Origin: Pseudomonadota bacterium
GTDB lineage: Bacteria; Pseudomonadota; Gammaproteobacteria; Steroidobacterales; Steroidobacteraceae
Direction: 5' to 3'
DNA: 64,000 nt
Assembly: GCA_021792555.1 (NCBI GenBank)
Contig: JAJYUL010000007.1
Span: forward strand, 44,221-108,220
Shown: positions 8,837-62,500 of the stretch, piece by piece
How positions within the stretch are numbered: position 1 is the stretch's first letter
How the letters are laid out: each line of letters begins with the position of its first letter
Notes under the pieces: generated by a model
Told to the model about the DNA's origin: nothing
The model's database searches: none
Seen by the model: the letters and a program-made list of their open reading frames with translations, nothing else
Program-made: the position numbers and the translations under genes

Positions 8837-8841
8837 CGCCG

Positions 8842-10026: not shown

Positions 10027-10180
10027 ACTGTTCAGTACAAATCACGATTCACCGATATAATCCGCGCTTCCATCGATCGTCCGCAGCCGCCGCGCCGCTC
10101 GCGCCGCGCGGGATGGGCGGCGGCGCTCGATGGCCCCTTGCACGGCAAGCTCGAGGCCGCGGCCGAGTGGCGCGGGAAGA

Positions 10181-16391: not shown

Positions 16392-16406
16392 GCGGGTGCT
16401 CTGCGC

Positions 16407-17295: not shown

Positions 17296-17312
<17 letters not shown>
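16407..17312 (-). CDS. ispA: Farnesyl diphosphate synthase (polyprenyl synthetase)
   Basis: LVHDDLPAMDDDDLRRGRPTCHKAYDEATALLVGDALQ; GLAFQIQDDLLDELGDTATLGK. Confidence 0.92.
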
Positions 17313-18453
<1,141 letters not shown>

Positions 18454-26633: not shown

Positions 26634-27851
26634 CTACAGCTGCGTCGGATCTTCGATCAGCTCACGCAGCGTACCGAGGAACTTCGCACCGGCTGCGCCG
26701 TCGATGACCCGATGGTCGGCCGAGAGCGTCAGCGTCATGACTTTGGCGACGGCGGGCGCGCCCTCGTGCACGATCACTCGCTCCTGCGCCGCTCCAACGG
26801 CGAGAATCGCCACCTGCGGCGGGTTGATGATCGCATCGAAGCGCGGCAGCCCGAACATGCCGAGATTGGACAGCGTGAATGTTCCGCCAGCGATATCCTC
26901 GCGCGTGAGCGTGCCGCGGCGGGCGCGCTCGAACAGATCCGCCGTCGTGGCAGCGATCTGCGGCACTGACTTGCTGTCCGCGGCCCGCACCACGGGGGTG
27001 ATCAGCCCGCCCGCGGCAGCCACGGCAACCGCCACGTCCGCGTGCGCAAAGGTCAGAATCTCCTCACCCTCGAGCCACGCATTCAGCTCGCGGTGCTGCA
27101 CGAGCGCCAGCGCGCAGCTGCGCACCAACAGATCGTTCACCGTGACGCGACGACCGGCGTGCTGCGCAACCTGCGCGGCGCGCTGCACGAGCGCCACAGC
27201 GCGCACATCGATGCTCAGCCGGAAATGCGGGATCGTCCGCGTCGATTCGAGCAGACGCCGCGCGATCGTGGCGCGCGTACCCGACAGAGGCGTGCGGGTC
27301 GGCGCATTTTCGCTGCCTGGCGTCGACTGCTGTGCCTGCGCTGCAAACGCCTCGACGTCCTCGCGCGTAATCCGACCGTTGCGGCCCGTACCGCGGATCT
27401 GCGCAAGATCAATGCCAAGACGCTCAGCGAGGCGCTGGGCATGCGGGCTGACGCGTGCGGGCTCCTCGCCCGCCGCAGCGCCGTCTTCGACAGGCGCGCC
27501 GGCGCCCGGGATGCCCGCTGCGGGCGCACTCTCCTCGGGCTCGAAAGACACCGTCGCGCCCTTGAAGGCGGCGATGAACGCCTCGATGGCCTGCTCGCTT
27601 GCTGCCGCCTCCGCCAGTACCGCGAGCAATGCGCCGACCGGCCGCGCCTCCCCGGCATCGGCGATGATGCGCCGCAGCGTACCGCCTGCCGGTGCATCGA
27701 CCGTGTTCACGATCTTCTCGGTTTCAACCTCGAGCAGCGCCGCGCCCTTGTCAATGTGCTGGCCCACCGCGACGTTCCACTGCACGATGGTGCCCTCGAC
27801 CATCTCGATGCCCCACTTCGGCATCGTGACCGCATGGATCAGCTCGCTCAT
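26634..27851 (-). CDS. 2-oxo acid dehydrogenase E2 (dihydrolipoamide acyltransferase)
   Basis: Lipoyl domain VETEKIVNTVDAPAGGTL, E3-binding segment SPHAQRLAERLGIDLAQIRGTGRNGRITREDVEAF, catalytic SADHRVIDGA. Confidence 0.92.
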   Translation of the reverse strand: MSELIHAVTMPKWGIEMVEGTIVQWNVAVGQHIDKGAALLEVETEKIVNTVDAPAGGTLRRIIADAGEARPVGALLAVLAEAAASEQAIEAFIAAFKGATVSFEPEESAPAAGIPGAGAPVEDGAAAGEEPARVSPHAQRLAERLGIDLAQIRGTGRNGRITREDVEAFAAQAQQSTPGSENAPTRTPLSGTRATIARRLLESTRTIPHFRLSIDVRAVALVQRAAQVAQHAGRRVTVNDLLVRSCALALVQHRELNAWLEGEEILTFAHADVAVAVAAAGGLITPVVRAADSKSVPQIAATTADLFERARRGTLTREDIAGGTFTLSNLGMFGLPRFDAIINPPQVAILAVGAAQERVIVHEGAPAVAKVMTLTLSADHRVIDGAAGAKFLGTLRELIEDPTQL

Positions 27852-28864
27852 CGGGTCGTTCCCACCAATTGACGGACGGCCGCCTCGATACGCTGCGGCC
27901 CGGGTACGTAGGCACGCTCGAGCGCCGGCGAGAACGGCACCGGTGTGTGCGGCGCGGTGATCTGCATGACCGGCGCACGCAGCGAACTGAAGCCCCGGGT
28001 GGCCGCGAGCGCGGCGATATCGGCGGCGACGCTGCAGCGCGGCGGTGATTCGTCGACCACGACCAGACGACCCGTACTGTCCAGGCTCTCCAGAATCGTC
28101 TCCTCATCGAGCGGCGAGGTGCTCCGTGGGTCAATCAGATCGCAGCTGATGCCATCGCGCGCCAGCGCATCGAGCGCCTTCTCGGCGAAGACGACCATGC
28201 GACCGATCGCAACCACGGTCGCATCACTGCCCTCGCGCACCAGGCTCGCCTCGCCGAAGCGCACGCGGTACGGCTCTTGCGGCACCTCGGCTTTGCGCGG
28301 ATAGAGCGCCTTGTGTTCGAAGAACACGACAGGATCGTCGTCGCGGATCGCCTCGATGAGCAGTCCTTTGGCGTCGCGGGCATTTGACGGCACCACGACT
28401 TTCAAGCCCGGAATAGCGGTCAACAGCCCATAGATGGCCTGGGAGTGCTGCGCACCCATGTTCATCCCGGCACCCATGGCCATGCGGATCACGAGCGGAC
28501 AGGTGCTTTTGCCGCCGAACATGTAGCGGAACTTCGCCACCTGGTTGTAGATCTGATCCATGCATACGCCGACGAAGTCGGCAAACATCAGTTCCGCCAC
28601 CGGGCGCAGACCGGCGAGGGCGGCGCCCGCGGCAGCCCCGATGATGGCCGATTCGCTGATCGGCGTATCAATGACCCGCCCGGCGCCGAAGCGCGGCAGC
28701 AGCCCCTTGGTCACCCCGAAGATGCCCCCGGATGCTTCCCGCTCGCCGGAGGTGCCGCCGGCACCGCCTGAGACGTCCTCCCCGAGCACGATCACGCGGG
28801 AATCGCGTTCCATTTCCTGGTGCAGCGCCTGATTGATGGCATCACGCATCGACAGCTGTGGCAT
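27848..28864 (-). CDS. 2-oxo acid dehydrogenase E1 beta subunit
   Basis: MRDAINQALHQEMERDSRVIVLGEDV; FADFVGVCMDQIYNQVAKFRYMFGG; DDDPVVFFEHKALYP. Confidence 0.93.
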   Translation of the reverse strand: MPQLSMRDAINQALHQEMERDSRVIVLGEDVSGGAGGTSGEREASGGIFGVTKGLLPRFGAGRVIDTPISESAIIGAAAGAALAGLRPVAELMFADFVGVCMDQIYNQVAKFRYMFGGKSTCPLVIRMAMGAGMNMGAQHSQAIYGLLTAIPGLKVVVPSNARDAKGLLIEAIRDDDPVVFFEHKALYPRKAEVPQEPYRVRFGEASLVREGSDATVVAIGRMVVFAEKALDALARDGISCDLIDPRSTSPLDEETILESLDSTGRLVVVDESPPRCSVAADIAALAATRGFSSLRAPVMQITAPHTPVPFSPALERAYVPGPQRIEAAVRQLVGTTR

Positions 28865-28891
28865 GAGAATGATTCCGCCGGATCCGTTGTG

Positions 28892-29878
28892 TCAGTAGCT
28901 GATATACACATCGCTCGTCAGATCGGCCTCTGACGGCATGGGCGCGGCACGCGCGGCGCGCACGGCCGCATCGATCTGCTCGTGAACTTCGCGGTCGATG
29001 GTCGCGAGTTCCGCCGCCGTGATGCACCCGCCAGCCGTGACTGCGGCACGAAAGCGCTTCAGGCAGTCCATCGTGGCGCGCTGCTGTTCAACCTCGCCTT
29101 TGGCGCGGTAGTTTTGCGGGTCGCCCTCGAAGTGCCCGTAAAAGCGCGTCGTCATAGCTTCGATGGTGCTTGGCCCACCGCCCGAGCGAGCGCGCGTAAG
29201 AGCCCGCTGCATGGCAGCGTGCACTGCAAAGAAGTCACTGCCGTCGACCCGCTCGGCTGGCATGCCGAAGGCGGCGCTGCGTGCGGTTATGTCCTTCGAT
29301 CCGACCGCGTAGTCGGCACCGGTGTGCTCGCTGTAGCCGTTGTTCTCGAATACGAAGATCGCCGGCACACCGAGCACCACCGCGAGATTCATCGCCTCGA
29401 AGACCGTGCCCTGATTGCAGCTGCCATCCCCGCCAAACGCGACGCTTACCCGCCCTGCGCCGCCGCCCGCGCGGCGCAGCTGACAGGCGATCGCCGCCCC
29501 GACCGCCAGGGGCGGCCCGCCCCCAACGATGGCATTGGCGCCGAGCATGCCTTTGTCGAAATCCGCGATGTGCATCGAGCCGCCCTTGCCTTTGCACAGT
29601 CCGCCGCGGCGGCCGTAGATCTCCAGCATCATGCCGGGCACATCGCAACCCTTGGCGATGCAATGGCCGTGGCCACGGTGCGTGCTGACGATGTAATCCT
29701 CATCCGTAAGCTCCGCGCAGACCCCGACCGCGACCGCCTCCTGGCCGGCATACAGATGCGTGAATCCGGGAATCTCGCCGGTGGCGATCTCCACATGCAG
29801 TCGCTCTTCGAACTCACGAATTGTCTGCATGCGCCGATAGATCTCAAGCAGCCGCGCCTGATCCAATTGCATGGTCAT
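28892..29878 (-). CDS. 2-oxo acid dehydrogenase E1 alpha subunit (TPP)
   Basis: TPP motif GGDGSCNQGTVFEAMNLA...FVFENNGY; HRGHGHCIAKG; start at MTMQLDQ (29878) rather than the longer ORF. Confidence 0.92.
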   Translation of the reverse strand: MTMQLDQARLLEIYRRMQTIREFEERLHVEIATGEIPGFTHLYAGQEAVAVGVCAELTDEDYIVSTHRGHGHCIAKGCDVPGMMLEIYGRRGGLCKGKGGSMHIADFDKGMLGANAIVGGGPPLAVGAAIACQLRRAGGGAGRVSVAFGGDGSCNQGTVFEAMNLAVVLGVPAIFVFENNGYSEHTGADYAVGSKDITARSAAFGMPAERVDGSDFFAVHAAMQRALTRARSGGGPSTIEAMTTRFYGHFEGDPQNYRAKGEVEQQRATMDCLKRFRAAVTAGGCITAAELATIDREVHEQIDAAVRAARAAPMPSEADLTSDVYISY

Positions 29879-29885
29879 CTTCTCC

Positions 29886-31241
29886 CTACAACCCGCCGGG
29901 GGGCTTGCCCTGCGGGCCGTACAGGTAATCATCGAGCACTTTGTGGAAGTGGCGGATCCGCAGCTCCTGGGCGCCGATCCACAAACCCTTGAAGCCCTTG
30001 GAATGCATGCCGGCCTGCACACTCGGCAGGTTCTGCGCATCCTGGTCGAGCACCAGCCCAATTGACTTGTCGCCGTGTTTCCATTGCTTGTGCTCGGCGC
30101 GCTGCGGCCACTCCTGCCCGTCCGGAACGAGCTCGAAGGTCATGATGTCGTAGAGCATTCGATCAGGGTCATGTGCATGCGGGCGCTGGCGGAAGATCCA
30201 GAAATCATCGGCATGAACATTCAGGGAGAGATTCGGAAAGATGAGATAGTGATAGTCGTCGGTAAGCTGATCGTCGTTCAAGCGCGAGTAGTCCTTGCCC
30301 TGCGCCGCCCCGTGGGCACGTTTGTGCTGTTGCACGTCGCGGCGTATCTGACTGATCGGGCGATCGTAGTCGGCAGGGTCCATGCCCGCAGACTTCATGA
30401 TCGTCTTGATCGGCTCGGGAATCGCCGGCGGCTTGCGCACCCGCGGGGAGAGCGTACCGAAAGGAATCAGGTAACGGTTGTGGCGTTCGTAGCAATCGAT
30501 CTGCACGTCGAGGTCATGCAGATACCACAACAGCTGCGGATGAATTCCCTGTACGTGGTAGGTCTCGTTGAACGCGTCCACCGAGGTCTTCCAGTTGCAG
30601 TTCCACTCGACCGTGATGTCGCGCGTCTGCACCATCTTGTGCATGTTGTACGGCTCGAGATGGCGGGGCAGCGGCTCGAGGAACTCGAGCAACGGTTGCG
30701 GCGATTCATTGAGCGTGTACCAGACGAACCCGCCCCAGGTGTCGCAGTGAATCTCGCTCAAGCCCTTCTTGGGCCTGCCCTGGGGAAAGGTGTCGATATC
30801 GGGAATGCGGTGATAGCCGCCGTCGAGGGTGTACTCCCAATGGTGATAAGGGCACTTGAAGGTGAGCGACTCGCCAGTGGTGCCGATACCGCAGCCGCGC
30901 AGCCGGGCGCCGCGGTGCTGGCAGACGTTGTAGAAGGCGCGCACACCACCGTCGCGCTGGCGCACGATCAAGATCGATTCCGGACCGATTTCTGTCACGA
31001 TGTAATCGCCCGGCTCGGGTATATCGGCCTCGCGCCCGCCGAGCAGCCACACCTTGCTCCACATGCGCTCCCACTCGAGCTGCATGAACTCGCGTGAGTA
31101 GTAGCGCCGCTGATCGATGACGTTCGTGTCGAGCTGCGGATCCGGGGCCTTCTCGACAGGCGTGTGCGGGCTGTCCTGCGGCCGCACACGCGGCACCGGA
31201 GTGAAGGCCGGCGACTTCGACCGCTGCCAGAACTCGTCCAT
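29886..31241 (-). CDS. Aromatic-ring-hydroxylating Rieske oxygenase, alpha subunit
   Basis: Rieske CQHRGARLRGC...CPYHHWEYTLDG; mononuclear iron motif DAFNETYHVQGIHPQ. Confidence 0.92.
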   Translation of the reverse strand: MDEFWQRSKSPAFTPVPRVRPQDSPHTPVEKAPDPQLDTNVIDQRRYYSREFMQLEWERMWSKVWLLGGREADIPEPGDYIVTEIGPESILIVRQRDGGVRAFYNVCQHRGARLRGCGIGTTGESLTFKCPYHHWEYTLDGGYHRIPDIDTFPQGRPKKGLSEIHCDTWGGFVWYTLNESPQPLLEFLEPLPRHLEPYNMHKMVQTRDITVEWNCNWKTSVDAFNETYHVQGIHPQLLWYLHDLDVQIDCYERHNRYLIPFGTLSPRVRKPPAIPEPIKTIMKSAGMDPADYDRPISQIRRDVQQHKRAHGAAQGKDYSRLNDDQLTDDYHYLIFPNLSLNVHADDFWIFRQRPHAHDPDRMLYDIMTFELVPDGQEWPQRAEHKQWKHGDKSIGLVLDQDAQNLPSVQAGMHSKGFKGLWIGAQELRIRHFHKVLDDYLYGPQGKPPGGL

Positions 31242-44488: not shown

Positions 44489-45850
44489 CTACTTATCCTG
44501 CTCGATGTAGCGATCCAGCTCGCGATGAAAATGCCGCACGCGCTGCTCCTGCTCGCCCCACAATGGACCGCGGAACCCCCGCGAACGGATGCCGCGCTGC
44601 TGGATCGGCAGCAGCTCAGAGTCCTGATCGAGCACTTCACCGAGGTTCGGCTTCTGCCCGAGCGGCACATGCACGATATCCGGGCGTGTTGCGCCGGTGA
44701 CATCGATGCCTTCCGGCAGTCCCATCCAGGCCGGCACGGTGTAGTCCGGGTCCTCGACGTGGCGGTAGAGGATCATCGTGTCGTAATAGAACTGCTCCGG
44801 ATCGCTCGGATGCGGCAGGAAGCGCATGATGAACACCCCTTCCGGATGCATGCCCATCTGCACGTTCGGGAACAGCCCGGTCGCCCAGCTGTCGGTAAGC
44901 TGCCCGTCGGTGAACCGATCATAGTGCGTCAGCCCGACACGACGCGCCCGCGCACGCTTCGCCTGCTGCACCGCCGCGCGCACTTCACGGGCGGTGCCGC
45001 TGAAGGCGGCCGCATCGATGCCGGCTTCCTTCAGCATGAACTGCAGGTACGGATCGACGCGCTCCTGATCCGGAACCCGGTGCGACTTGACACAGATCGG
45101 CACGATCATGCGACTGGCGCCGTTTGGATAAAGATCGTACTGACTGAAGTCCTCCATGACGCCCTGTGTCTGCGGGTGCACCCACGGCAGATGATAGGTC
45201 TCGTAAAACGCATCCACGCCCGTCTTCCAATTCGCGCGCCAGGCGCTGCGCACGTGGTGAACCACATGCATCTTGTCGATTTCGTAGTTCTCGATATAGC
45301 CTGCCGGCAGCCCCAGGTACTCGTGCAACGGGGGCGCCCTGCCGTCCATGTTGATGAATATCAGCCCCGCGTGCACTGCACAGCGGACCTCGGTCAAACC
45401 CGGGCGATGCGCGATCAGCCGCGGATTGAACGTCTCCTCATCCGTGATCCGCTGCAGCTTGCCGTCACAGCCGAACTGCCAGCCGTGAAACGTGCAGGTG
45501 AAGCGCGCAACGCTGCCGCGCTCGTTCATGCATACGCGATTGCCGCGGTGCGGGCAGACGTTGTAGAAGGCCTTGACCGTCCCGTCCGGCTGACGCGAGA
45601 TGATGAATTCCTCGCTGCCGATCTCGAATACGAAGTAATCACCTTCCTCAGCAACATCGCTCGTCACTCCGGCAAGCAGCCAGACGCGCGGCCACAGTCG
45701 TTGCCACTCCAGATCCATGAACTCGCGCGTGTAGTAGCGCGCCGGATCGGGCACATCGAGTCCGTCGTCGACGGGCGGCTGCTTTGCCTCGAGCGAATCT
45801 GCAGGCGCCCCGAGATTCATCGGCCACTCGACTTTGTAATTTACGGCCAT
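44489..45850 (-). CDS. Aromatic-ring-hydroxylating Rieske oxygenase, alpha subunit
   Basis: CPHRGNRVCMNERGSVARFTCTFHGWQFGCDG Rieske; DAFYETYHLPWVHPQ iron site. Confidence 0.92.
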   Translation of the reverse strand: MAVNYKVEWPMNLGAPADSLEAKQPPVDDGLDVPDPARYYTREFMDLEWQRLWPRVWLLAGVTSDVAEEGDYFVFEIGSEEFIISRQPDGTVKAFYNVCPHRGNRVCMNERGSVARFTCTFHGWQFGCDGKLQRITDEETFNPRLIAHRPGLTEVRCAVHAGLIFINMDGRAPPLHEYLGLPAGYIENYEIDKMHVVHHVRSAWRANWKTGVDAFYETYHLPWVHPQTQGVMEDFSQYDLYPNGASRMIVPICVKSHRVPDQERVDPYLQFMLKEAGIDAAAFSGTAREVRAAVQQAKRARARRVGLTHYDRFTDGQLTDSWATGLFPNVQMGMHPEGVFIMRFLPHPSDPEQFYYDTMILYRHVEDPDYTVPAWMGLPEGIDVTGATRPDIVHVPLGQKPNLGEVLDQDSELLPIQQRGIRSRGFRGPLWGEQEQRVRHFHRELDRYIEQDK

Positions 45851-45886: not shown

Positions 45887-46792
45887 TCACCGCGATCGCG
45901 GCACACTGAAATACTCCGGCATCCCGGCTGGCCAGACGTCACCGAGCTGATTATTGCCGCCATCGACGACCATAACCTCACCGGTGATGAACTTTGCCGC
46001 AGGCGCGGCCAGATACACCACGGCCTGCGCGACATCCACCGGATCGCCCAATTCGCGCAACGGGTTGGAATAGCGGAACATTTCGGCGGCCTGACGCTCG
46101 TACACGTTGAGTCCCTCTGTGTTTATAGACCCTGGAGAGACGCAATTGACCCGGATGCCGAGCGGGGCCCATTCCGTCGAGAGCGTCTTCGACAGATAGA
46201 TGACGCCAGCGCGTGCCGCGCAGGTGTGCGCAACTTGCGGCATGCCGCGCCACACGTTGGCGACGATATTGACGATGTTTCCGGACTGCTTGCGCGTCGA
46301 CCAGCGCTGCGCCGCAGCCTGCATCATGTACCAGGTCCCATTCAGGTTGGTATCGATGACGGCTTTCCAGCCCTTCACGCTGAAGTCGATGGCGGCCTGT
46401 GGGAACTGCCCCCCGCCGTTGTTGACCAGCGTGTCGAGTCGGCCGAAGCGCTCGAACACCTCGTCCATGAGGCGGGCCACCGCATCCGGGTCACGTATCG
46501 TCATCGGGATGCCAACCACCTCCCGATTGAGATGGCGGTGGATGCCGTCGATCGTTTCCTTCAGCTTCTCCTGGCGCCGGCCGCAGATCGCGACGTTCGC
46601 GCCGAGGCGGGCACACACATACGCGATGGCGCGGCCGATCCCGCTGCCGCCGCCGGAGATCAGTACGGTCTGTCCATCGAGCAGACCATCACGGTACACG
46701 AGTGAGCGTGTGGCCAGCGTCTCATCGGACAGCCCCCATGGCTTCACGCCACCTTCCTCTGCGCGTGCTGATGACATCGTTGGTTCTTTCAT
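45887..46792 (-). CDS. SDR-family oxidoreductase
   Basis: TVLISGGGSGIGRAIAYVCARLGANVAICGR; DTLVNNGGGQFPQAA; SPGSINTEG. Confidence 0.9.
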   Translation of the reverse strand: MKEPTMSSARAEEGGVKPWGLSDETLATRSLVYRDGLLDGQTVLISGGGSGIGRAIAYVCARLGANVAICGRRQEKLKETIDGIHRHLNREVVGIPMTIRDPDAVARLMDEVFERFGRLDTLVNNGGGQFPQAAIDFSVKGWKAVIDTNLNGTWYMMQAAAQRWSTRKQSGNIVNIVANVWRGMPQVAHTCAARAGVIYLSKTLSTEWAPLGIRVNCVSPGSINTEGLNVYERQAAEMFRYSNPLRELGDPVDVAQAVVYLAAPAAKFITGEVMVVDGGNNQLGDVWPAGMPEYFSVPRSR

Positions 46793-46814: not shown

Positions 46815-48014
46815 TCATGTTGTCAGTCCGAATATGGCGATACTCGCCACGTTGCGGTTGGGTATGCCGCCAAGATTGTGCGCCAGGCCGATTGCCGGCG
46901 CAGCGAGCTGGCGCTCCCCGGCGCGGCCGAGTAGCTGCAGATACACCTCGTACGCCATGCGCAGTCCGGTCGCGCCGATCGGGTGGCCGAAGCACTTCAA
47001 GCCGCCGTCGATCTGGCACGGAATGGCCCCGTCCCGATCGAAGCGCCCGTCGAGCACGTCGTGCGGCGCCATGCCCTCCGCGGAGAGCCCCAGGTCCTCC
47101 ATCAGGACGAGCTCGGTGATCGAGAAGCAATCGTGCACCTCGATCATATCGATCTGCTCGGCCGGGCGACTGATGCCCGCCTCCTGATACGCGCGTGCCG
47201 CGGCAATCCGCGTCGTCAGCGTGTGACTGCCATCCCAGGAGCAGTGCCCCATCTCGACACCGTTGCTGGTGGCAAGCTGCAGCGCCTTGATCGTGACCAG
47301 ATCGCGCTTGCCGAGCGCGCGTGCGATCGCCGGTGTCGTCACGATGGCGCAGGCCGCGCCGTCGCTCACGCCACAGCAGTCCAATACCCCGAGGGGGTAG
47401 GAAATCATCGGTGCGGCGAGCACCTGCTCCTCGGTGATGCGGTTGCGCAGATGCGCCTTGGGATTACGCGCGCCGTTATCGTGACTCTTGCAGGAGATAT
47501 GCGCCATCGCCCGACGCAACTCCGCCATGGAGTACCCGTGGCGGGCCGCGTAGGCACTCGCAAGCTGAGCAAAGGCACCCGGAGCGGTGCTCGAGGGCAG
47601 GTACAGATCCTCGAACGTCCCCTTGGTGCGCTCCGGCAGACCCGCGTAACCGGTGTCCTTGAGCTTCTCGACGCCCATGGCGAGAGCAATATCACACGCG
47701 CCGCAGGCCACGGCGTGCGCCGCGCCGCGCAATGCCTCGGTGCCGGTGGCACAGAGGTTTTCCACCCGAGTGACCGGTATGTTGGCGAGGCGCAGCCCCA
47801 TCGCGAGCGGCAGCGAGGACTTGCCGGTGCTTTGCTCATCGAAAAAGATGCCGAGCCACGCCGCCTCGAGACGGTCACGATCGATGCCGGCATCGGCCAG
47901 CGCTTCGCTCAGCGCCTCCAGCATCAGATCGTCCGGGCCACAGTCCCAGCGCTCGCCGAATTTCGAGCAACCCATCCCGAGAATTGCCACCTTGTCGCGG
48001 ATACCCTGTGCCAT
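46815..48014 (-). CDS. SCP-x/lipid-transfer-type thiolase
   Basis: VENLCATGTEALRGAAHAVACG; IEVHDCFSITELVLMEDLGL; GGLKCFGHPIGATGLRMAYEVYLQLLGRAG. Confidence 0.9.
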   Translation of the reverse strand: MAQGIRDKVAILGMGCSKFGERWDCGPDDLMLEALSEALADAGIDRDRLEAAWLGIFFDEQSTGKSSLPLAMGLRLANIPVTRVENLCATGTEALRGAAHAVACGACDIALAMGVEKLKDTGYAGLPERTKGTFEDLYLPSSTAPGAFAQLASAYAARHGYSMAELRRAMAHISCKSHDNGARNPKAHLRNRITEEQVLAAPMISYPLGVLDCCGVSDGAACAIVTTPAIARALGKRDLVTIKALQLATSNGVEMGHCSWDGSHTLTTRIAAARAYQEAGISRPAEQIDMIEVHDCFSITELVLMEDLGLSAEGMAPHDVLDGRFDRDGAIPCQIDGGLKCFGHPIGATGLRMAYEVYLQLLGRAGERQLAAPAIGLAHNLGGIPNRNVASIAIFGLTT

Positions 48015-48022
48015 AGCCGCAG

Positions 48023-49507
48023 TCAGACCTTTTTTGCCTTCCAGAAATAGCGGCGGAACCCGCGCAGCCGATCGATGTCCTTCACCCGGAAGACGAACCT
48101 CACCTCGTCGCCCACCCGCAGCTCCCCCGGGTCGACGTCGGTAAACTCCATCAGCAGGTTGCCGCCCGACTCCAGCTCGACGTTACCGTACACGTACGGG
48201 GGCCGCGGCGAGTAGGCTTGCCAATCCTCGGTAAAGGTCTTGACCCGACCGATGGTTGCAGCGAGCGGGCACTCCTCCTGGGTATCGGTGCGACGGCAGA
48301 GCGGATTGACGCACACCCGGCTTTTCGGAAACTGCACGGTGCCGCAGTCGCGGCAGCGCCCGCCGACAAAGGCGTTCGTCTGGCGGCGCTTGCGCCAGGC
48401 GACGGTGTGCGCGGTGCGGTTGTCGCGCTCGGCGCGCATGCCGAAGTACGGCTCGAGCAGTCCGCAATGCGCGAGATAACGCGTGTAATACGGCTCCGGC
48501 TTGCCGGATCCGAGCCGTTCGGCGAGCGGCGCACGCGCCGCTCTGCCCGCAGCGTCGGCTGCGACCAATACCAGCGCATCGGCGCCCTGGCCGAAGCCGA
48601 CGAGCACGATGCGCTCACCGGGCTTAGCCGCCTCGAGCGCCGCGGCGAGCATCAGCAACGGATGGGCGGTGCCGGTATCACCGCACTGCGCATGGAAATC
48701 GTCCTGTAGCCGAGCGTTGCACAGTCCCGTCGCCTGGGCGAGACGTCGGACCGTTGTGCGGCTGCCGCTCATCACCAGGTGATCAACATGCTCGGGCTGC
48801 AGCGCGGCGCTCTGCAGCGCCCGCGCGATACTCTCCCCGACCAGTTTCATGATGCCCTCATCGCGGATCCAGCGCTCCTCGAGCGCGTAATCGAACCGCT
48901 CTGCGTTCATCCGATAGTGATCCACGAAGTCCGCCGCGAGGCTCTCGGCCGCCAGAATGACCGCGAGCGGCTCCATGCCCGCAGCGTGCGCATCGCGCAC
49001 AGTGAGCAGGGCCGTCGCGCCGGCTCCGAACTGCAGCTCCTGGGGGCTTGCCGGTCGGGCGAGGCGCGCATCGGTAGCCACGAGCAGTGCGGCCGCCCCC
49101 GCATCGCGCAGCGCGAGGTCGGCGAGCGCCGTGGTCGCCGACCGCAGGCTGCCCGTGCGATCGCTGGTGCGAATCGATTCGGGCAGACCGAGCGCGCTCG
49201 CCACCAGTGTTGCATTGCTCCGATCGGCAAACGGCAGGCTCGTCGAGGCGAGCGTGACCGATTGTACGCGCGGCTCGGGGTCGCGCAGCGCGCCAAGACA
49301 GTTCCGCGCGGCCTCCACTGCCATCGTGAGGGCGTCCTCATCCCAGTTGCATATCGCGCGCGCGCCCGAGACGGCCGCGCCGCCAGAGGGCCCGAGCCAC
49401 TGCAGCGCCTGCGCGATGCACGCTCGTTCCAGGCGCAGGTCCGGCACATAACTGCCGCAGGCAACGATGCTCGTCAGCGCGCTCATCGACCGGTCAGTTC
49501 TCGACAA
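48023..49507 (-). CDS. HMG-CoA synthase/KAS-III-like thiolase-fold protein fused to C-terminal DUF35 Zn-ribbon/OB-fold domain
   Basis: N-terminal thiolase-fold features (ALTMAVEAARNCLG, DDFHAQCGDTGTAHPLLMLAAALEAA); C-terminal GGRCRDCGTVQFPKSRVCVNPLC zinc ribbon, then GRVKTFTEDWQAYSPRPPYVYGNVEL...VDPGELRVGDEVRFVFR OB fold. Confidence 0.85.
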   Translation of the reverse strand: MSRTDRSMSALTSIVACGSYVPDLRLERACIAQALQWLGPSGGAAVSGARAICNWDEDALTMAVEAARNCLGALRDPEPRVQSVTLASTSLPFADRSNATLVASALGLPESIRTSDRTGSLRSATTALADLALRDAGAAALLVATDARLARPASPQELQFGAGATALLTVRDAHAAGMEPLAVILAAESLAADFVDHYRMNAERFDYALEERWIRDEGIMKLVGESIARALQSAALQPEHVDHLVMSGSRTTVRRLAQATGLCNARLQDDFHAQCGDTGTAHPLLMLAAALEAAKPGERIVLVGFGQGADALVLVAADAAGRAARAPLAERLGSGKPEPYYTRYLAHCGLLEPYFGMRAERDNRTAHTVAWRKRRQTNAFVGGRCRDCGTVQFPKSRVCVNPLCRRTDTQEECPLAATIGRVKTFTEDWQAYSPRPPYVYGNVELESGGNLLMEFTDVDPGELRVGDEVRFVFRVKDIDRLRGFRRYFWKAKKV

Positions 49508-50705
49508 ACGGATCGAGCAGCGGCGGCACGCGCAGCGCCGCAGGCACCCGCTCGAGCCCGATCCGCCGATCCAGCTCCGTATGCCAATGGTAAATGCGAC
49601 GCTCCTGATAATTGAGCGGAATCCCCCTGAAGCCCGGCGTCATGACCGACTCCTGGATCGCCGCGGCGAACTGCAGGTCCTCATCGAGAATGCGATCGAA
49701 GTTCGCGATGCGCACCTTCCACAGCTCCGACGGCGGCCCGGCGCCCCAGTCGGGCGCGAACCAGTGGCACTCGATGCGCATGGTGCGGTCGGAAACCGGC
49801 CAGAAGAGCAGGAACGGGCAGCCGGTCGGGTCAACCGGCACGACCAGGTTCGGAAAGAAATTGAACGAGGGATTGTTGCGCGCGGAAATTTCCGTCGCAG
49901 TCTCGATCCGGCGCATGCCGCGGGTGCCCGGATCGACCCAGTCCGGGCGGCGGTTCGGCGTCACCATCAGCGAGTGGCCGCGCCGATACAAGGCGATCGT
50001 CGTGCCGCGGTGATCGAGAAACCGATCCACCGTGTTCTGGTGAATCGACTTCAGGTGATACACCTCTAAAAAAGCATCGAGCAGCACCTTGACGTTGCAG
50101 TTCACATCGACGCTCTGCTGCGAAACGAGCCGCCATTCGAGCGGCTGGAACTGCTTGAAGTATTCGAAGAATGGCGCAAAGTGCTGCTCGAGCGGCTCGG
50201 CGCTGGGATCCTCGTTGATGAACACCCAGCGGTAAAACCGCTCGCAGCGCACGGCGCGCAGCCCGCGGGTACACATGTCCAGGCCGACAAAGTCGCGCTT
50301 GTCGCGCAGGTTGATCAGCTGACCGTCCAAGCCGTAGGTCCAGCCGTGATACCCGCAGACGAAGCCCTGCACGCAGCCCTTGTCGCCCTTGACCACCGGT
50401 GCACCGCGGTGCTGGCAGGTGTTGTAGAACGCACGCACCACGTCGTCCTTGCCGCGCACGATGACGATCGGCGCGCCGGTTTTGCGCATCACCAGAAACG
50501 AGCCCGGCTCGGGAAGCTCATCGAGGTGGCAGGCATACAGCCAGCTGCGCCCCCACAGCCGCTCGCGCTCGAGCGCGAGAAACGCCGGGTCGACATAGCG
50601 GCCGGCGGGGATATCCGGCAATTGCGGAAACCCCTCCGGGGGCGCCGCCCGCTCGGCCTCATACTTCATGCCGTCGAGAAACCGCTTTACGGTTGCAGAA
50701 TCCAC
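49494..50705 (-). CDS. Aromatic-ring-hydroxylating Rieske oxygenase, alpha subunit (GTG start proposed)
   Basis: CQHRGAPVVKGDKGCVQGFVCGYHGWTYGLDG Rieske; DAFLEVYHLKSIHQ iron site. Start uncertain; ORF extends to 50834 over the putative operator. Confidence 0.9.
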   Translation of the reverse strand: MDSATVKRFLDGMKYEAERAAPPEGFPQLPDIPAGRYVDPAFLALERERLWGRSWLYACHLDELPEPGSFLVMRKTGAPIVIVRGKDDVVRAFYNTCQHRGAPVVKGDKGCVQGFVCGYHGWTYGLDGQLINLRDKRDFVGLDMCTRGLRAVRCERFYRWVFINEDPSAEPLEQHFAPFFEYFKQFQPLEWRLVSQQSVDVNCNVKVLLDAFLEVYHLKSIHQNTVDRFLDHRGTTIALYRRGHSLMVTPNRRPDWVDPGTRGMRRIETATEISARNNPSFNFFPNLVVPVDPTGCPFLLFWPVSDRTMRIECHWFAPDWGAGPPSELWKVRIANFDRILDEDLQFAAAIQESVMTPGFRGIPLNYQERRIYHWHTELDRRIGLERVPAALRVPPLLDPFVEN

Positions 50706-53536: not shown

Positions 53537-54724
53537 CTAGATCACTTCGCGGGTTCGCAATGCGGCGATTTCACTATCGCTGTACCCGAGACTGCGCAGG
53601 ATCTCATCGGTATGTTCACCGGCTTGTGGCGGCGGCCGACGGATGCCGCCGCCACATCCGCTCAGCGTGACGGGAAGGTCGGGCACCGACACCGCATGTG
53701 CAAGTCCCGGATAGTCGCTGATCGCGCGCAGCAACCTCATGGCGGCCACCTGCTCATTCTCGAGAGCCTCCTGGGGCGTGAGTATCGGCCCGGCGGGAAT
53801 GCCGGCCTGCTGCAGAGCCGCGATTGCCTCGGCCGTAGTGCGCTCGCAGCACCACACGCGCATGCGCTCGAGTATGGGCCCGCTGTTATCGCCGCGCGAC
53901 TGGTCGGTGCCGAAGCGGGCATCGTTGCACCAGAGCGCCTCCTCACCCATCAGCCGCGCCCAGCGGCGGAATAGGCCGTTACCGACCACATGTGTCAGGA
54001 TATGACCATCACGAGTCGCAAATACATCCGATGGGGCGGAGGTCTGCACACGATTACCCGTGCCCACGCGGCCGATGTGCGTTGCGCTCTGCTCGATCAG
54101 GTGCGAGCCGAACACCGCCAGCGCCGTGCCGAGCAGCGTGGCGTGGACTTGCTGGCCCTCGCCGGTCTGCTGCCGATGCATCAGCGCGGCCAGCGTTGCG
54201 AACGCCGAGAGAACGGCGGTGGCGTAATCGACGTACGGCGCCGCAGCCTTGGCCGGTGCGCCCGGCGTGCCCGTGATGTACATCGCTCCGGACATTGCCT
54301 GGCCGATGCCATCGAAGCCGCCCCGGTTGCTGTACGGCCCGACGTCGCCGAAGGCGCTCTGCGCGACGAGAATGATGTCCGGCCGGATCTTGCACAACGA
54401 CTCGTAATCGAGCCCCATCTTCGCGCGTGCCGCCGCCGGCAGATTGGCGATCACCACATCGGCGCTGCGCACCAGTCGGGCAACGATTTCGGCTGCGGCG
54501 GGATTGCCCAGCTCGAGCGTCAGGGAGCGCTTGTTGCAGGCCGTCTGAAACAGCACCGCGCCCTCGCCCGCGGCGGTGATCGGGGCTATGAAGCGGTCCT
54601 CGCCGCCGCCGCGCCGCTCGATGCGGATGACATCGGCGCCGAGGTAACCGAGCAGTGTCGCGCAGTATGGCCCGGCCACGTAGCGCCCGAAGTCCAGAAC
54701 CCGAATGTTTTTCAGCAGCGCCAT
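53537..54724 (-). CDS. CaiB/BaiF-family (class III) CoA transferase
   Basis: IRVLDFGRYVAGPYCATLLGYLGADVIRIERRGGGEDR; NKRSLTLELGNPAA; RGGFDGIGQAMSGAMYITGTPG. Confidence 0.93.
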   Translation of the reverse strand: MALLKNIRVLDFGRYVAGPYCATLLGYLGADVIRIERRGGGEDRFIAPITAAGEGAVLFQTACNKRSLTLELGNPAAAEIVARLVRSADVVIANLPAAARAKMGLDYESLCKIRPDIILVAQSAFGDVGPYSNRGGFDGIGQAMSGAMYITGTPGAPAKAAAPYVDYATAVLSAFATLAALMHRQQTGEGQQVHATLLGTALAVFGSHLIEQSATHIGRVGTGNRVQTSAPSDVFATRDGHILTHVVGNGLFRRWARLMGEEALWCNDARFGTDQSRGDNSGPILERMRVWCCERTTAEAIAALQQAGIPAGPILTPQEALENEQVAAMRLLRAISDYPGLAHAVSVPDLPVTLSGCGGGIRRPPPQAGEHTDEILRSLGYSDSEIAALRTREVI

Positions 54725-54741
54725 TTTTTACAGGAGCCCCC

Positions 54742-55902
54742 ATGGATTTCCGCTTGACCGATGATCAGCTCGCTCTGCAGGCTACCGCACGCGAATACGT
54801 GCGCAAGCGGCTGCTGCCGCTCGCCGCGCAGATTGATCGTGAGGACACGCCGCCGCCGCGCTCCTTGGTGCGCGAATATGCCGAGATGGGCTTCCTCGGC
54901 CTGAACGTCGCACCGCAGTACGGCGGGCTCGGCCTGAGCAATCTCGATGCGCTGATCGTGCTCGAGGAGTTCGGCAAGTGCTCCTCCGCCCTCGCCTTTC
55001 CGGTGTTCGAATCGTGCGTAGGACCGGTGCGCTCGGTGGAGCACTTTGCCGGTGAGGCACTGCGCCAGCGCATCATCCCGCGGGTGTGCAGCGGTGAGAT
55101 GATTGTCGCCGTGTCGATGTCCGAACCCCAGGCGGGCTCGGCGCTGAGCGACCTGACCACGCGCGCCGAGGTGCGCGCGGATCGAGTCGTGCTGAATGGC
55201 ACGAAACGCTGGTGCTCGGGTGGCGGACATGCGGACGCCTATGTCGTTTACTGCCGGATGAGCGATGCGCCAGGGGCCAAAGGCATCGGCGCGGTGCTCG
55301 TGGAAAAGGGCACCCCCGGCCTCACATTCGGCGCCCCGGAGAGCCTGATGGGCTTCCGTGGCGTGCCGAGCAGTGATCTTTACTTCGACGACTGCGAAGT
55401 TCCCGCGGAGAACATCATCGTACCGGCCGGGGGCTTCAAGAAGCTGATGGAGACCTTCGATCTGGAGCGCTGCGGGAACGCCACGATGTCGCTGTCGCAG
55501 GCAAGCGGCGCACTGCAGGACGTTCTTGCCTACGTGCAGGAGCGCAAGCAGTTCGGCAAGCCGCTCGCCGATTTCCAGGCCGTACAGATGAAGCTCGCCG
55601 AAATGCAGATGAAAGTCGAGGCGGCACGGCTGCTGATCTGGCGCGCGGTCGCCACTGCCCATGACGGCCTGCCGAACGTGCTGGAGTCCTCGGTCGCCAA
55701 ATGCTTCGCCAATGAGGCGGCAAGAGAAGTCTGCGGCCATGCGGTGCAACTGATGGGCGGTTACGGGTATTCGCGCGAGTACCCGATGGAGCGGCGCCTG
55801 CGCGACGCCTGGGGCTGGGGAATCGCCGGCGGGGCGATCGACATCCAGAAGGTGAATATCGCCTCGGCCATGATCGGTCGCCGCTTCGATCAACGCCGTT
55901 AA
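54742..55902 (+). CDS. Acyl-CoA dehydrogenase
   Basis: MDFRLTDDQLALQATAREYV; VSMSEPQAGSALSDLTT; QLMGGYGYSREYPMERRLRDAWGWGIAGG; start 54742. Confidence 0.93.
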   Translation: MDFRLTDDQLALQATAREYVRKRLLPLAAQIDREDTPPPRSLVREYAEMGFLGLNVAPQYGGLGLSNLDALIVLEEFGKCSSALAFPVFESCVGPVRSVEHFAGEALRQRIIPRVCSGEMIVAVSMSEPQAGSALSDLTTRAEVRADRVVLNGTKRWCSGGGHADAYVVYCRMSDAPGAKGIGAVLVEKGTPGLTFGAPESLMGFRGVPSSDLYFDDCEVPAENIIVPAGGFKKLMETFDLERCGNATMSLSQASGALQDVLAYVQERKQFGKPLADFQAVQMKLAEMQMKVEAARLLIWRAVATAHDGLPNVLESSVAKCFANEAAREVCGHAVQLMGGYGYSREYPMERRLRDAWGWGIAGGAIDIQKVNIASAMIGRRFDQRR

Positions 55903-56246
55903 AGGTGCCCGGCCGCCGCCGGGCGCGCCGCTGCGAGCGCGACGTGCACCATGCCCTCGATGACGCGCACCTCATGGCGCTGCAGCGGCTCGGTGGCGGG
56001 CGCCCCGAGCACACGGCCGTCGCGCACGTCGAAGGACGCACCGTGCAGCGGACAGATGAGCCGCACGCCGCGCAACCGCCCTTCGTGCATCTGCGCATAG
56101 GCGTGTGTGCAGACGTTGTCCAGGGCGAAGATGCCTGCGCGCGTGTGGCAGATCAGCACGTCACGCCCGCTCAGCGTGACGCAACGCATAGCCCCCTCGG
56201 GCAGATCGGCCAAGGCAATGGCCGGATGGAATGTCACGTCAGTCAA
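55899..56246 (-). CDS. Rieske [2Fe-2S] ferredoxin component
   Basis: DNVCTHAYAQMHEGRLRGVRLICPLHGASFDVRDGRVLGAPATEPL. Confidence 0.9.
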   Translation of the reverse strand: MTDVTFHPAIALADLPEGAMRCVTLSGRDVLICHTRAGIFALDNVCTHAYAQMHEGRLRGVRLICPLHGASFDVRDGRVLGAPATEPLQRHEVRVIEGMVHVALAAARPAAAGHL

Positions 56247-56317
56247 GATGCACAGCCGCTTTGACTCGCACCCACCAGGGGGGCGGAACCCGCACTGTAC
56301 CGCACTTGATCCAAAAC

Positions 56318-56335
56318 AAACAGGCGTGCTTGTTT
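56318..56335. promoter_or_regulatory. Putative operator F: AAACAGGCGTGCTTGTTT followed by CTTTT
   Basis: Best match to the palindrome family; between divergent Rieske ferredoxin and ABM genes; TATCAT at 56356-56361 as candidate -10. Confidence 0.68.
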
Positions 56336-56386
56336 CTTTTCAGAATTCTCTGGGCTATCATCGGGCGGCACTGGAGGGGGAACACC

Positions 56387-56677
56387 ATGGCGAAGATCAC
56401 CTTCATCGCGAGGATGACCGTAAAGCAGGAGCGCGAGGATGAATTCCTCGACTGCTGTCGCAAGCTAGAGCGCTACGTGCGCGAGAACGAGCCCGACACC
56501 GTGGCTTACGAATTCTTCCGGCTGCGCGAGCCACACCGCTTTGCGGTGCTCGAGTCCTTCAAGGACGAACAGGCCGAACATCATCACATGAGTTCGCCCA
56601 TGCTCGCGCAGCTCGCACCGCAGATTGCCGAGTGCGTCGAGGGCACATGGATCCGTGAATTCTTCGATCCATTGTAA
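56387..56677 (+). CDS. ABM-domain (antibiotic-biosynthesis/quinol monooxygenase-like) protein
   Basis: ITFIARMTVKQEREDEFLDCCRKLERYVRENEPDTVAYEFFRLREPHRFAVLESFKDEQAEHHHMSSP; start 56387. Confidence 0.82.
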   Translation: MAKITFIARMTVKQEREDEFLDCCRKLERYVRENEPDTVAYEFFRLREPHRFAVLESFKDEQAEHHHMSSPMLAQLAPQIAECVEGTWIREFFDPL

Positions 56678-56684
56678 ACAGCCG

Positions 56685-58379
56685 ATGAACAAGACTCAAA
56701 TGACTCCGCGCAGCGAAACGCTGCGCTCGGTGCGGATTCAAGTCACCACGCTCGGTGATCTGCTGCTCAGTGCCGCAGACCGCCATCCAGACTCACCAGC
56801 GCTGATCCTGCCCGGCGGGCGCATGACCTATGCGCAGCTCGCGCAGCGCGCGCTGCGGCGCGCGCGCAGCCTGCAGGCGCTCGGCATCCAGCCACACGAT
56901 CATGTCGGGCTGTTGCTGCCGACATCCTTCGAGTTCGTCGAAATGCTCTTCGCCATAGCACTGTGCGGTGCCGTGGCCGTCCCCATGAACGCGCGCTACC
57001 GGCACAACGAGCTCGCTTACGTCATCGAGAACGGCGACCTGGTCGCCGTGTTCACCACGGATCTGATCGCCGAGCAGGTGAATTTCGTCGAACGGTTGAC
57101 GAACGCACTGCCCCAATTGCGCGACGCACAGGATCCGCGACGGCTGTCCCTGAGCGCCGCTCCGTGCCTGCGCAACCTCGTGTTGCTCGGCAAATCGCGC
57201 CAGCACGGCTTCCTGGCCGAGGACGAGTTCGATGCGCTCGCTGACCAGTCTGCCGAGGAGCTGGTGCACGAGGCGCGCCTGCGCGTGCGGCTGCGCGACG
57301 TGGCAATCATGCTCTACACGTCCGGAACCACCTCCAATCCCAAGGGCTGCCTGCTCTCGCACGAAGCGATGGTGCGCAACTCGATCGCGCTCGGACGTCA
57401 CCGCTACGCGCTGACACATGACGATGTGTTCTGGTCGCCGCTACCGATGTTCCACATCGCGGCGATCCTGCCGATGTGCGCGATTTTCGACGTCGGCGGG
57501 GTCTACGCCACCATGACGCATTTCGATGCCGGCAAGGCGCTGCAAATGCTCGAGAGCGAACGCGTGACGGCGACTTATCCCTGTTTCGTCACGATCATGT
57601 CCGATCTGATTCATCATCCGGACTTCCCAAAAACCGACCTCTCGCGCATCAAGCTGATGAACTCGAACTTCGCGGTCCAGCCGCCGGCCATCGCCACAGC
57701 GATGCTCAAGGCGATTCCCGATGCGCTGTACGTCGGCACCTTTGGCATGACGGAAACCGCCGGGACCGTCACCACCAGCCGTCTCGATGATCCGCTTGAG
57801 CAGCGCATCGGCAGACTGGGGCGGCCCCTGCCGGGCCTGGAGGTGCGCATCGTTGACCCCGAAAGCGGGCTCGATGTGCCCACCGGCAGCCGCGGAGAAG
57901 TGCTGGTGCGCGGCTACAGCACGCTCGAGGGTTATTACAAAGACGTGCAAAAAACGGCTCAGGCGCTCGATGCGGACGGCTGGTTCCACACCGGTGACAT
58001 CGGCTCGGTGGATGCAGCCGGCACCATGATGTTTCACGGTCGGGTGAAAGACATGCTGAAGGTCGGCGGTGAGAACGTCGCCGCGGCCGAGATCGAAAGC
58101 TGCCTGCAGCGCCACCCGGCGGTCAAGCTCGCGCAGGTCGTCGGGGTCCCGGACGCCCGCCTGGTCGAGGTGGCCGCAGCGTTCGTCGAATGCCGTGAGG
58201 ACTGCTCGGTCGATGCCCAGGAGCTGATCGAGTTCTGCCGGCGCGAGATCGCCAGCTTCAAGGTGCCCCGCCACATCCGCTTCGTCACCGCCTGGCCGAT
58301 GTCAACCAGCAAGATCCAGAAGTTTCGCCTGCGCGATCAGCTCATCGTGGAGCTCAATCAAGCCGGGCAACAGGGGTAA
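56685..58379 (+). CDS. AMP-dependent acyl-CoA synthetase/ligase
   Basis: IMLYTSGTTSNPKGCLLSHEAM; YVGTFGMTETAG; GWFHTGDIGSVDAAGTMMFHGRVKDMLKVGGENVAAAEIE; start 56685. Confidence 0.93.
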   Translation: MNKTQMTPRSETLRSVRIQVTTLGDLLLSAADRHPDSPALILPGGRMTYAQLAQRALRRARSLQALGIQPHDHVGLLLPTSFEFVEMLFAIALCGAVAVPMNARYRHNELAYVIENGDLVAVFTTDLIAEQVNFVERLTNALPQLRDAQDPRRLSLSAAPCLRNLVLLGKSRQHGFLAEDEFDALADQSAEELVHEARLRVRLRDVAIMLYTSGTTSNPKGCLLSHEAMVRNSIALGRHRYALTHDDVFWSPLPMFHIAAILPMCAIFDVGGVYATMTHFDAGKALQMLESERVTATYPCFVTIMSDLIHHPDFPKTDLSRIKLMNSNFAVQPPAIATAMLKAIPDALYVGTFGMTETAGTVTTSRLDDPLEQRIGRLGRPLPGLEVRIVDPESGLDVPTGSRGEVLVRGYSTLEGYYKDVQKTAQALDADGWFHTGDIGSVDAAGTMMFHGRVKDMLKVGGENVAAAEIESCLQRHPAVKLAQVVGVPDARLVEVAAAFVECREDCSVDAQELIEFCRREIASFKVPRHIRFVTAWPMSTSKIQKFRLRDQLIVELNQAGQQG

Positions 58380-60664: not shown

Positions 60665-62500
60665 TCAGCTCTTCGGCAGAGCGAACACCATGAGCGTACC
60701 ACCAAGCTGGGTGTACTGGTTAAGGCTCTGATCCAGACCCACGGCCCCGAGTCCCGCTGTGGACTTGTGCAGGTCGTTGGTCATGCCGATGGCCGCCCAG
60801 CCGCCGACGCCGGTGAGCACGGCGACGTACTGACGCCCGTCATGCATGTAGGTGATCGGATTGCCGATGATGCCCGAGGGGCAATGGAAGCTGTAGAGGA
60901 CCTTGCCGGTGTGCACGTCCACCGCGCGGAAATCGCCCTTCAGCGTGCCGTAGAAGGCGATGCCGCCCGCCGTGGTGAGCGCTCCGCCCCAGTCCTGGAA
61001 CTCATCGTGAATCGCCCAGTTCGTCTTGCCCGTCACCGGGTTGATCGAGATGAACCGGCCGCGATAGCCACCCGGACCCGGATGCATGTTCACGATCGCG
61101 CCCACGAACGGGAAGCCGGCCATGTACTTGACGGAGAACGCCTGGTAGTCCATGCACAGGTGGTTCAGCGGCACGTAGAAGTCGCCGGTCTGCGGATCAT
61201 ACGAGGACGGCTGCTCGTCCTTGTCGCCCTGCGCGGCCGGGCAGATGCCCGTCACGTTGACGCCCGCCTTGGTCATGTACTGCTTGTTCAGGTAGGGCAT
61301 GCCGGTCTGCATGTCGAACCCGTTCGACCAGTTCACCGACGGATCGTACTTCTGGATCCGCACCGGCTTGCCCGTCTCACGATTCACGACGAACATGTAG
61401 CCGTTGCGGTCGAAGTGCGCGAGCAGCGGCTCTTCATGACCGTTGACCTTGGCGTTGAACAGCACCATCTCGTTCACGCCGTCGTAGTCCCAGCCGTCGT
61501 GCGGCGTCATCTGCAGGACCCACTTGGCCATGCCCGTGTGCAGATTGCGCGCGAAGATGGTCATCGACCAGCGGTTCAGGCCCGGACGCTGCGTCGGGTT
61601 CCAGGTGCCCGGGTTGCCGCTGCCGTAGTAGAGGAGCCCGAGCTTGGGGTCGTAGGAATACCAGCCCCAGGTCGTCCCACCGCCCTCTTTCCACTCATCG
61701 CCGCGCCAGGTCTTCAGGCTCGAGTCGACGCCCACCGGCTTCTGGGTGAAGCCGTTGATGGTGCGGTTCGGGTTGAACAGCAGCTGGTTGTCCGGGCCCT
61801 CGCTGTAGGCGCGCCAGAGCATCTTGCCGGTGTTCGCATCGAGCGCGGTCAGATAGCCGCGCACGCCGAACTCACCGCCCGACACGCCGATCAGCGCCAC
61901 GCCGTCGAATACCTGCGGAGCGGCCGTCACGGTCTGGCCGAGCTTCGGGTGGGCGTTCTTGAAGCTCCACTCGACCGCGCCGTCTTTGGCGTTGAGCGCA
62001 TAGATCATGCCGTCGAGCGCGGACATGATGATCTTGCCGTTGTAGTAGCTCACGCCGCGGTTCACCACGTCGCAGCAGGCGACCGGGGGAGCGTTCGGAT
62101 CCGGCGGCGGCGTGAACTTCCACTCGACCCGGTGATTCGGGTCGTTCAGATCGACCGCGTATACGTGGTTCGGATACGGTGTCTCGAAGTACATCGTATT
62201 GCCGACCACCAGCGGCTGGCCCTCGTGGCCGCGCAGCACGCCGGTGGACATGGTCCAGGCGACCTGCAGCTTCGAGGCGTTCTGCGCGTTGATCTGCTCG
62301 AGCTTGCTGTAGCGCCAGTTGTAGTCGTTGCCCGCAGGCTTGGTCCAGTAGTCTCCGGTCGGCCCGGTGTTCGCCGCATGGGCGGGACTCGAGCTGGCGC
62401 ACGCGCCGGCGACGACGAGCACAGCGGCGGCGCCCGAGAGCAACCATCCCCAGCGCTGCCGATCCGCCCGCCGTGGCGTTTTATCAGTCAGTTTGTACAC
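60665..62500 (-). CDS. xoxF: PQQ-dependent methanol dehydrogenase, XoxF-type (lanthanide-type DYD motif)
   Basis: VACCDVVNRG vicinal disulfide, GGEFGVRGYLTALD, YGSGNPGTWNPTQRPG, PHDGWDYDGVNE. GTG start at 62500 preceded by AGGAGAAAATACC and giving a clean signal peptide. Confidence 0.88.
   Translation of the reverse strand: MYKLTDKTPRRADRQRWGWLLSGAAAVLVVAGACASSSPAHAANTGPTGDYWTKPAGNDYNWRYSKLEQINAQNASKLQVAWTMSTGVLRGHEGQPLVVGNTMYFETPYPNHVYAVDLNDPNHRVEWKFTPPPDPNAPPVACCDVVNRGVSYYNGKIIMSALDGMIYALNAKDGAVEWSFKNAHPKLGQTVTAAPQVFDGVALIGVSGGEFGVRGYLTALDANTGKMLWRAYSEGPDNQLLFNPNRTINGFTQKPVGVDSSLKTWRGDEWKEGGGTTWGWYSYDPKLGLLYYGSGNPGTWNPTQRPGLNRWSMTIFARNLHTGMAKWVLQMTPHDGWDYDGVNEMVLFNAKVNGHEEPLLAHFDRNGYMFVVNRETGKPVRIQKYDPSVNWSNGFDMQTGMPYLNKQYMTKAGVNVTGICPAAQGDKDEQPSSYDPQTGDFYVPLNHLCMDYQAFSVKYMAGFPFVGAIVNMHPGPGGYRGRFISINPVTGKTNWAIHDEFQDWGGALTTAGGIAFYGTLKGDFRAVDVHTGKVLYSFHCPSGIIGNPITYMHDGRQYVAVLTGVGGWAAIGMTNDLHKSTAGLGAVGLDQSLNQYTQLGGTLMVFALPKS

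Follow-up and report, generated by a model that had tools for sequence, protein, structure and literature searches.

A thiolase gene paired with a fusion of DUF35 and an HMG-CoA-synthase-like half that lacks the synthase catalytic residues

Introduction

In archaea, acetoacetyl-CoA thiolase, HMG-CoA synthase (HMGCS) and a DUF35 protein form a three-chain complex (PDB 6esq) whose synthase keeps Cys114, Glu82 and a histidine and makes HMG-CoA; it belongs to the mevalonate pathway, not to catabolism. The same three folds occur in two adjacent genes of the 64,000 nt stretch analysed here (the window; positions 44,221 to 108,220 of contig JAJYUL010000007.1, from a Steroidobacteraceae bacterium), one gene coding for a thiolase and the other for an HMGCS-like half fused to a DUF35 half. 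An earlier reading of the DNA letters alone had taken the pair for a possible single-chain version of the archaeal channelling complex, and had also noted that the synthase half seemed to lack its nucleophilic cysteine. This raises the question of which part of the pair performs chemistry, and of what kind. The reading favoured below, to which we assign a probability of roughly 0.7, is a two-subunit thiolase/HMGCS-like/DUF35 assembly in which the dead synthase half serves as a scaffold and the thiolase is the sole catalyst.

The two genes and their predicted folds

Both genes lie on the minus strand. The fusion gene (48023..49486; 487 aa) is upstream of the thiolase gene (46815..48014; 399 aa), and 8 nt separate the fusion stop codon from the thiolase start codon. 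The sequence-only reading was right about this close spacing; its order, thiolase and then fusion, holds only in plus-strand coordinates. The fusion start was placed at the ATG at 49486, giving 487 aa, rather than at a TTG at 49507, because the latter overlaps the end of the Rieske oxygenase gene upstream. Pfam models ACP_syn_III_C, zf-ChsH2 and OB_ChsH2_C matched the fusion. Together with NCBIfam and PDB matches, an AlphaFold model and Foldseek searches, they delimit an HMGCS/KAS-III-like fold (residues ~1–312), a short conserved connector (~313–365) and a zinc ribbon plus OB fold (~366–487). The earlier proposal that such a fold is fused to DUF35 in one gene is therefore borne out by Pfam and by the fold matches. 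The pair is nonetheless not a single-chain complex, since the fusion joins two of the three parts and the thiolase has a gene of its own.

Modelled as a single chain, the fusion was predicted to form one unit (mean pLDDT 91.2, pTM 0.93). The top solved folds retrieved by Foldseek were PhlA, the archaeal HMGCS 6esq_I (TM score 0.88, normalised by target) and MucA, the MucABC counterpart, all of them subunits of the same assembly type. The relation to the archaeal complex that had been suggested is thus supported by sequence and by fold. In the DUF35 half, the zinc ligands C378, C381, C392 and C397 (48296..48355, minus strand) are kept in 80–81 of 81 homologues, and both the four-cysteine zinc ribbon and the OB fold typical of DUF35 were recognised by Pfam above cut-off (zf-ChsH2 and OB_ChsH2_C). 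The segment joining the halves looks unlike a loose tether, because its length is nearly constant (67 residues in 59 of 81 homologues over the stretch measured) and Y334, G349, R351, E353 and D355 are invariant. A flexible arrangement is seen in Shy, in which DUF35 is also fused to another domain, although there the partner is a MaoC hydratase rather than an HMGCS-like fold and the 26-residue linker is disordered (PMC12329534). Fusions of DUF35 to members of the thiolase superfamily were noted in a 2010 survey, as was the inactivity of PhlA (PMC2954200).

Fate of the synthase active site

Over its first 330 residues the fusion matched the archaeal-type HMGCS model PRK04262 (NCBIfam; E = 9e-40) far more strongly than FabH. 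The score, 136.7 bits, was below the curated cut-off of 244 bits. Sequence matches in the PDB were PhlA, 6esq_I and 6esq_E, with PhlA the best for the N-terminal half.

A histidine takes part in HMGCS catalysis. Catalytic roles are also established for Cys114 and Glu82 (PMC6392133). When a profile of eight homologues was aligned with the archaeal HMGCS 6esq_I, Cys114 corresponded to Leu114 in the window fusion (codon 49145..49147, minus strand; profile and tree alignments agreed), Glu82 to Thr82, and the catalytic histidine to Ser240. The by-eye alignment of TSDRTGSLRSATTAL in the sequence-only reading, which found no cysteine at the nucleophile, was therefore correct. A conserved active-site cysteine, which would have counted against that reading, was also searched for among the 81 homologues, and none carries one at position 114: the residue is Gln in 43, Leu in 24, Arg in seven, Val, Met and Pro in two each, and Ala in one. 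Thr occupies position 82 in every one of the 81. At position 240, 68 homologues have Pro and only four have His, and at position 270, the site that corresponds to the Asn in the Cys-His-Asn set of KAS-III, Asp or Glu predominates. The nucleophile column is of average conservation only (53rd percentile of the HMGCS-like half). No replacement cysteine was conserved in the N-terminal half either, since C10, C23, C46, C63, C256 and C268 all vary among the 81 homologues. A sequencing or frame error was considered as the source of the missing nucleophile and ruled out; the frame is open and the homologues share the absence.

The fusion thus has the HMGCS/KAS-III fold and has lost the Glu/Cys/His triad of a functional HMG-CoA synthase. 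Judged by its residues, the HMGCS-like half can hardly catalyse any condensation by the known mechanism, which supports the earlier suggestion of a non-condensing synthase half; the accompanying idea that this half performs a retro-Claisen or aldol step has no known catalytic residue left to support it. Channelling meets the same difficulty: it would need a second active site to receive the intermediate, and the replacement of Cys, Glu and His leaves none. The archaeal HMGCS is the closest NCBIfam model of the N-terminal half, and the fold matches 6esq, but in view of the three replacements there is next to no chance that the pair works as the archaeal complex does, channelling intermediates to make HMG-CoA or a related branched product.

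Comparable losses are found in known assemblies. PhlACB (PpATase/CsATase; PDB 5m3k and 9skh) and MucABC (9vbo) likewise combine a thiolase, an HMGCS-like subunit without Cys and Glu, and DUF35, in three separate chains where the window has two genes; our alignment showed the triad to be lost in PhlA and in its MucABC counterpart as well. For PhlA, which lacks the Cys and the Glu, no catalytic role has been assigned, and activity resides in PhlC alone (PMC6392133); a C88S change renders PhlC inactive (PMC12955522). The fusion shares with PhlACB the possession of a non-catalytic HMGCS-like part. By analogy, the HMGCS-like half would have lost its active site and become a structural partner, as PhlA is in PhlACB. 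Whether the fusion and PhlA share one loss or represent two is a point on which the tree of the synthase-like parts is too weak to speak (basal support 78/75). An unfused operon in another Pseudomonadota genome (locus L142 of G598, 7009–10051) encodes a thiolase, an HMGCS-like protein of 315 aa (8646–9593) without Cys, Glu or His, and a DUF35 protein assigned from its translation. Fusion and loss of activity are therefore separable.

The former pocket does not seem to be simply decaying, and may still bind something or carry out other chemistry, because Thr82, the Arg or Lys at position 115 (81 of 81 homologues) and the His or Gln at 275 (79 of 81) are conserved. These residues, with Asp109 (79 of 81) and with Glu203 and Arg205, both invariant in a 56-row alignment, would fit a site repurposed for ligand binding or for a new catalytic activity, which could set substrate choice or control the thiolase. 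Conserved residues can equally serve folding or subunit contacts, and PhlA offers no catalytic precedent; on balance we regard a repurposed site as possible, if on the unlikely side. Its more specific form, a pocket converted to bind acyl-CoA or the substrate core through Thr82, Arg115 and His275 and gating the adjacent thiolase, is a rather doubtful proposal; if it held, the fusion would be a pseudoenzyme that selects substrates in many catabolic pathways.

The thiolase

The partner is an SCP2-type thiolase with Pfam domains Thiolase_N and Thiolase_C_1, and it matched PRK06157 (NCBIfam) with 653 bits against a cut-off of 403. Its catalytic motifs are all present: C88, H294-D-C296-F and G-H344-P. 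The VENLCATG motif reported by the sequence-only reading is indeed kept and holds the nucleophile, Cys88 (codon 47751..47753, minus strand). Among homologues with a residue at the position, C88 is conserved in 78 of 78, H294 and C296 in 74 of 74 and H344 in 72 of 72. Its best Foldseek match was 6esq_A, the archaeal thiolase, which was also among the top sequence matches. If a C–C bond is cleaved, the thiolase is the best candidate for the step; its motifs (Cys88, HDCF, GHP) are of the thiolase type and not of the Ltp2/Sal aldolase type.

This last point bears on whether the pair could instead be a steroid side-chain aldolase of the Ltp2-ChsH2 or Sal-Shy type, acting by retro-aldol removal of a side chain. 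Those enzymes, like the pair, combine a thiolase fold with DUF35 in catabolic operons, and both were among the Foldseek matches of the thiolase. CtSal, however, has Gly in place of the nucleophilic Cys and YDCY for HDCF, and TcLtp2 has YDHF (PMC12329534), while no aligned homologue of the window thiolase departs from Cys88 or HDCF. With a partner half that is HMGCS-like and not a MaoC hydratase, the aldolase explanation seems most improbable. Foldseek also retrieved PDB 7pxp, the benzoylsuccinyl-CoA thiolase BbsAB, an SCP2-like thiolase with a DUF35 partner in catabolic thiolysis; BbsAB, unlike the pair, is without an HMGCS-like part.

Distribution of the pair

Relatives were found at no fewer than 567 loci in a scan of the genome collection. 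The best 80 of these loci were fetched and their genes called with a codon-usage caller. The thiolase gene lay directly downstream of the fusion gene and on the same strand in 68 of the 71 loci with enough room for the arrangement to be tested, so that the thiolase, HMGCS-like and DUF35 parts are encoded together there; L142 has the three-gene form. The intergenic gaps were mostly between -8 and +60 nt, with stop and start codons often overlapping or nearly so. Divergence of the fusion was correlated with that of the thiolase (r = 0.81, 62 pairs), a result that shared ancestry would also give. Taking an even sample of Pseudomonadota genomes, a full-length fusion was present in 10 of 399 (~2.5%, the window genome included) and an unfused relative in one of the 399. 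The control genome of Caulobacter vibrioides gave an HMGCS model match, and may contain the fusion; if so, this laboratory species could serve as a convenient host for genetic work.

Plasmid records of Sphingobium, Novosphingobium, Azoarcus, Variovorax, Rhodococcus and others also contain the fusion, annotated as 'OB-fold domain-containing protein' or '3-oxoacyl-[ACP] synthase III C-terminal domain-containing protein'. In all six plasmid regions opened, an 'acetyl-CoA acetyltransferase' was annotated beside it. The PRK06157 thiolases and the RefSeq proteins so named are the families of the two genes, adjacent on the named plasmids; this correspondence is one of annotation only. A literature search by annotation name retrieved no functional study of the fusion, and a characterised member of a known pathway, sought as evidence against the sequence-only reading, was not found; a paper on acetone metabolism in Desulfotomaculum mentions a separate DUF35 gene only. 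The pair is therefore a common, already annotated and apparently uncharacterised variant of a known assembly type.

Catabolic context and proposed function

In the window, the genes read on the minus strand from 5′ to 3′ are those of a Rieske oxygenase alpha subunit (49494..50705), the fusion, the thiolase, an SDR oxidoreductase (45887..46777), a second Rieske oxygenase alpha subunit of the cluster (44489..45850), a ThuA-domain protein and a VOC protein, with the Rieske and SDR assignments made by Pfam. A CaiB-type CoA-transferase, an acyl-CoA dehydrogenase, a Rieske-type ferredoxin, an ABM protein and an acyl-CoA ligase, identified by Pfam and as conserved neighbours, are encoded at 53537..58379. 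A Rieske oxygenase of the same cluster lay directly upstream (position -1) in 19 of the 74 loci with a called fusion, and the SDR gene was at position +2 in 15 loci. Most of these 19 loci share SDR, CoA-transferase, acyl-CoA dehydrogenase, AhpD-like, ThuA, VOC, ABM or acyl-CoA ligase genes. A FadB in the window scored 902 bits against a cut-off of 870, so ordinary beta-oxidation is separately provided for.

In other lineages the pair was accompanied by acyl-CoA dehydrogenases, hydratases, MaoC proteins or acetyl-CoA hydrolase-like proteins. The fusion and the thiolase are the constant elements and the remaining neighbours vary, as expected of a module that breaks C–C bonds and serves several degradation routes. 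The thiolase probably acts in a catabolic pathway that also employs Rieske oxygenases, where it would cleave a bulky beta-ketoacyl-CoA. Glutathione S-transferases (GSTs) beside the pair in relatives gave only uncharacterised or disulfide-reductase-like matches, and the Rieske subunits matched only broad ring-hydroxylating families; no substrate could therefore be named.

Near-obligate pairing, homology and fold suggest that the thiolase and the fusion associate physically, and the gene neighbours point to thiolysis rather than condensation. In the scaffold reading, the DUF35 half would dock the scaffold onto the thiolase and help to shape the acyl-CoA pocket. Cys88 would attack the beta-ketoacyl-CoA, with HDCF and GHP providing acid/base catalysis and the oxyanion hole, and CoA would then release the shortened acyl-CoA. 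A plausible order for the operon would be CoA activation by the ligase or the CoA-transferase, Rieske oxygenation, oxidation by the SDR to a beta-ketoacyl-CoA and, as the last step, thiolysis that takes off a side chain or part of a ring. The missing triad, the complete thiolase, the steady gene pairing and the predicted fold are read from the sequence; complex formation, its stoichiometry, the direction of cleavage and the order of steps are what we infer.

The neighbourhood also bears on whether the pair might be a PhlACB-like C-acyltransferase or deacylase, one that needs no free CoA and whose substrate is aromatic or cyclic. PhlACB, which performs CoA-independent C-acyl transfer in natural-product synthesis, has the same three parts and a dead synthase-like subunit, and Rieske ring-hydroxylating enzymes adjoin the pair. 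In ibuprofen degradation, moreover, IpfD/IpfE have been proposed to remove the acyl-CoA side chain after dioxygenation, and IpfABDEF is the nearest functional precedent for a gene set of Rieske oxygenase, SCPx thiolase and partner. The window thiolase, however, is far nearer to archaeal and SCP2 thiolases (5e-52) than to PhlC, of which only a distant match was found (E ~1e-16, limited to residues 271–388), and the neighbours are enzymes of CoA esters (ligase, CoA-transferase, acyl-CoA dehydrogenase). We thus consider a CoA-free acyl transfer quite unlikely.

Precedents exist for every part of the scaffold reading, with PhlACB for the dead HMGCS-like subunit and Shy for DUF35 in a fusion; the new elements are the combination of parts, its breadth and its catabolic setting. 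Their occurrence indicates that an assembly of archaeal lipid synthesis and antibiotic synthesis is also common in proteobacterial and actinobacterial catabolic clusters, where the synthase half is dead and fused to the DUF35 bridge. With its two genes, the pair is a clean system in which to ask why an inactive synthase partner has been kept by thiolases, the question also posed by PhlA, and the present assignment would correct annotations that name the fusion a ketoacyl-ACP or HMG-CoA synthase.

Some further observations concern the loci as such. The recurrent Rieske–fusion–thiolase–SDR cluster (19 loci, L031 to L092, the window included) also carries CoA-transferase, acyl-CoA dehydrogenase, GST, AhpD-like, ThuA and ABM genes, and its substrate may be one shared compound. 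Elsewhere in the window, genes resembling the E1 alpha, E1 beta and E2 components of 2-oxoacid dehydrogenases, as read from their translations, lie within 26634–31241 beside a Rieske oxygenase gene (29886–31241) of the same cluster as that at 44489–45850. Two quinoprotein-like genes are found at 24682–26601 and 60665–62443, the second matching a PQQ dehydrogenase beta-propeller and lying near a cytochrome c gene. Finally, an apparent hopanoid-type cluster, judged from translations, occupies 13303–18453 and includes squalene-hopene-cyclase-like, squalene/phytoene-synthase-like, polyprenyl synthetase and radical SAM proteins.
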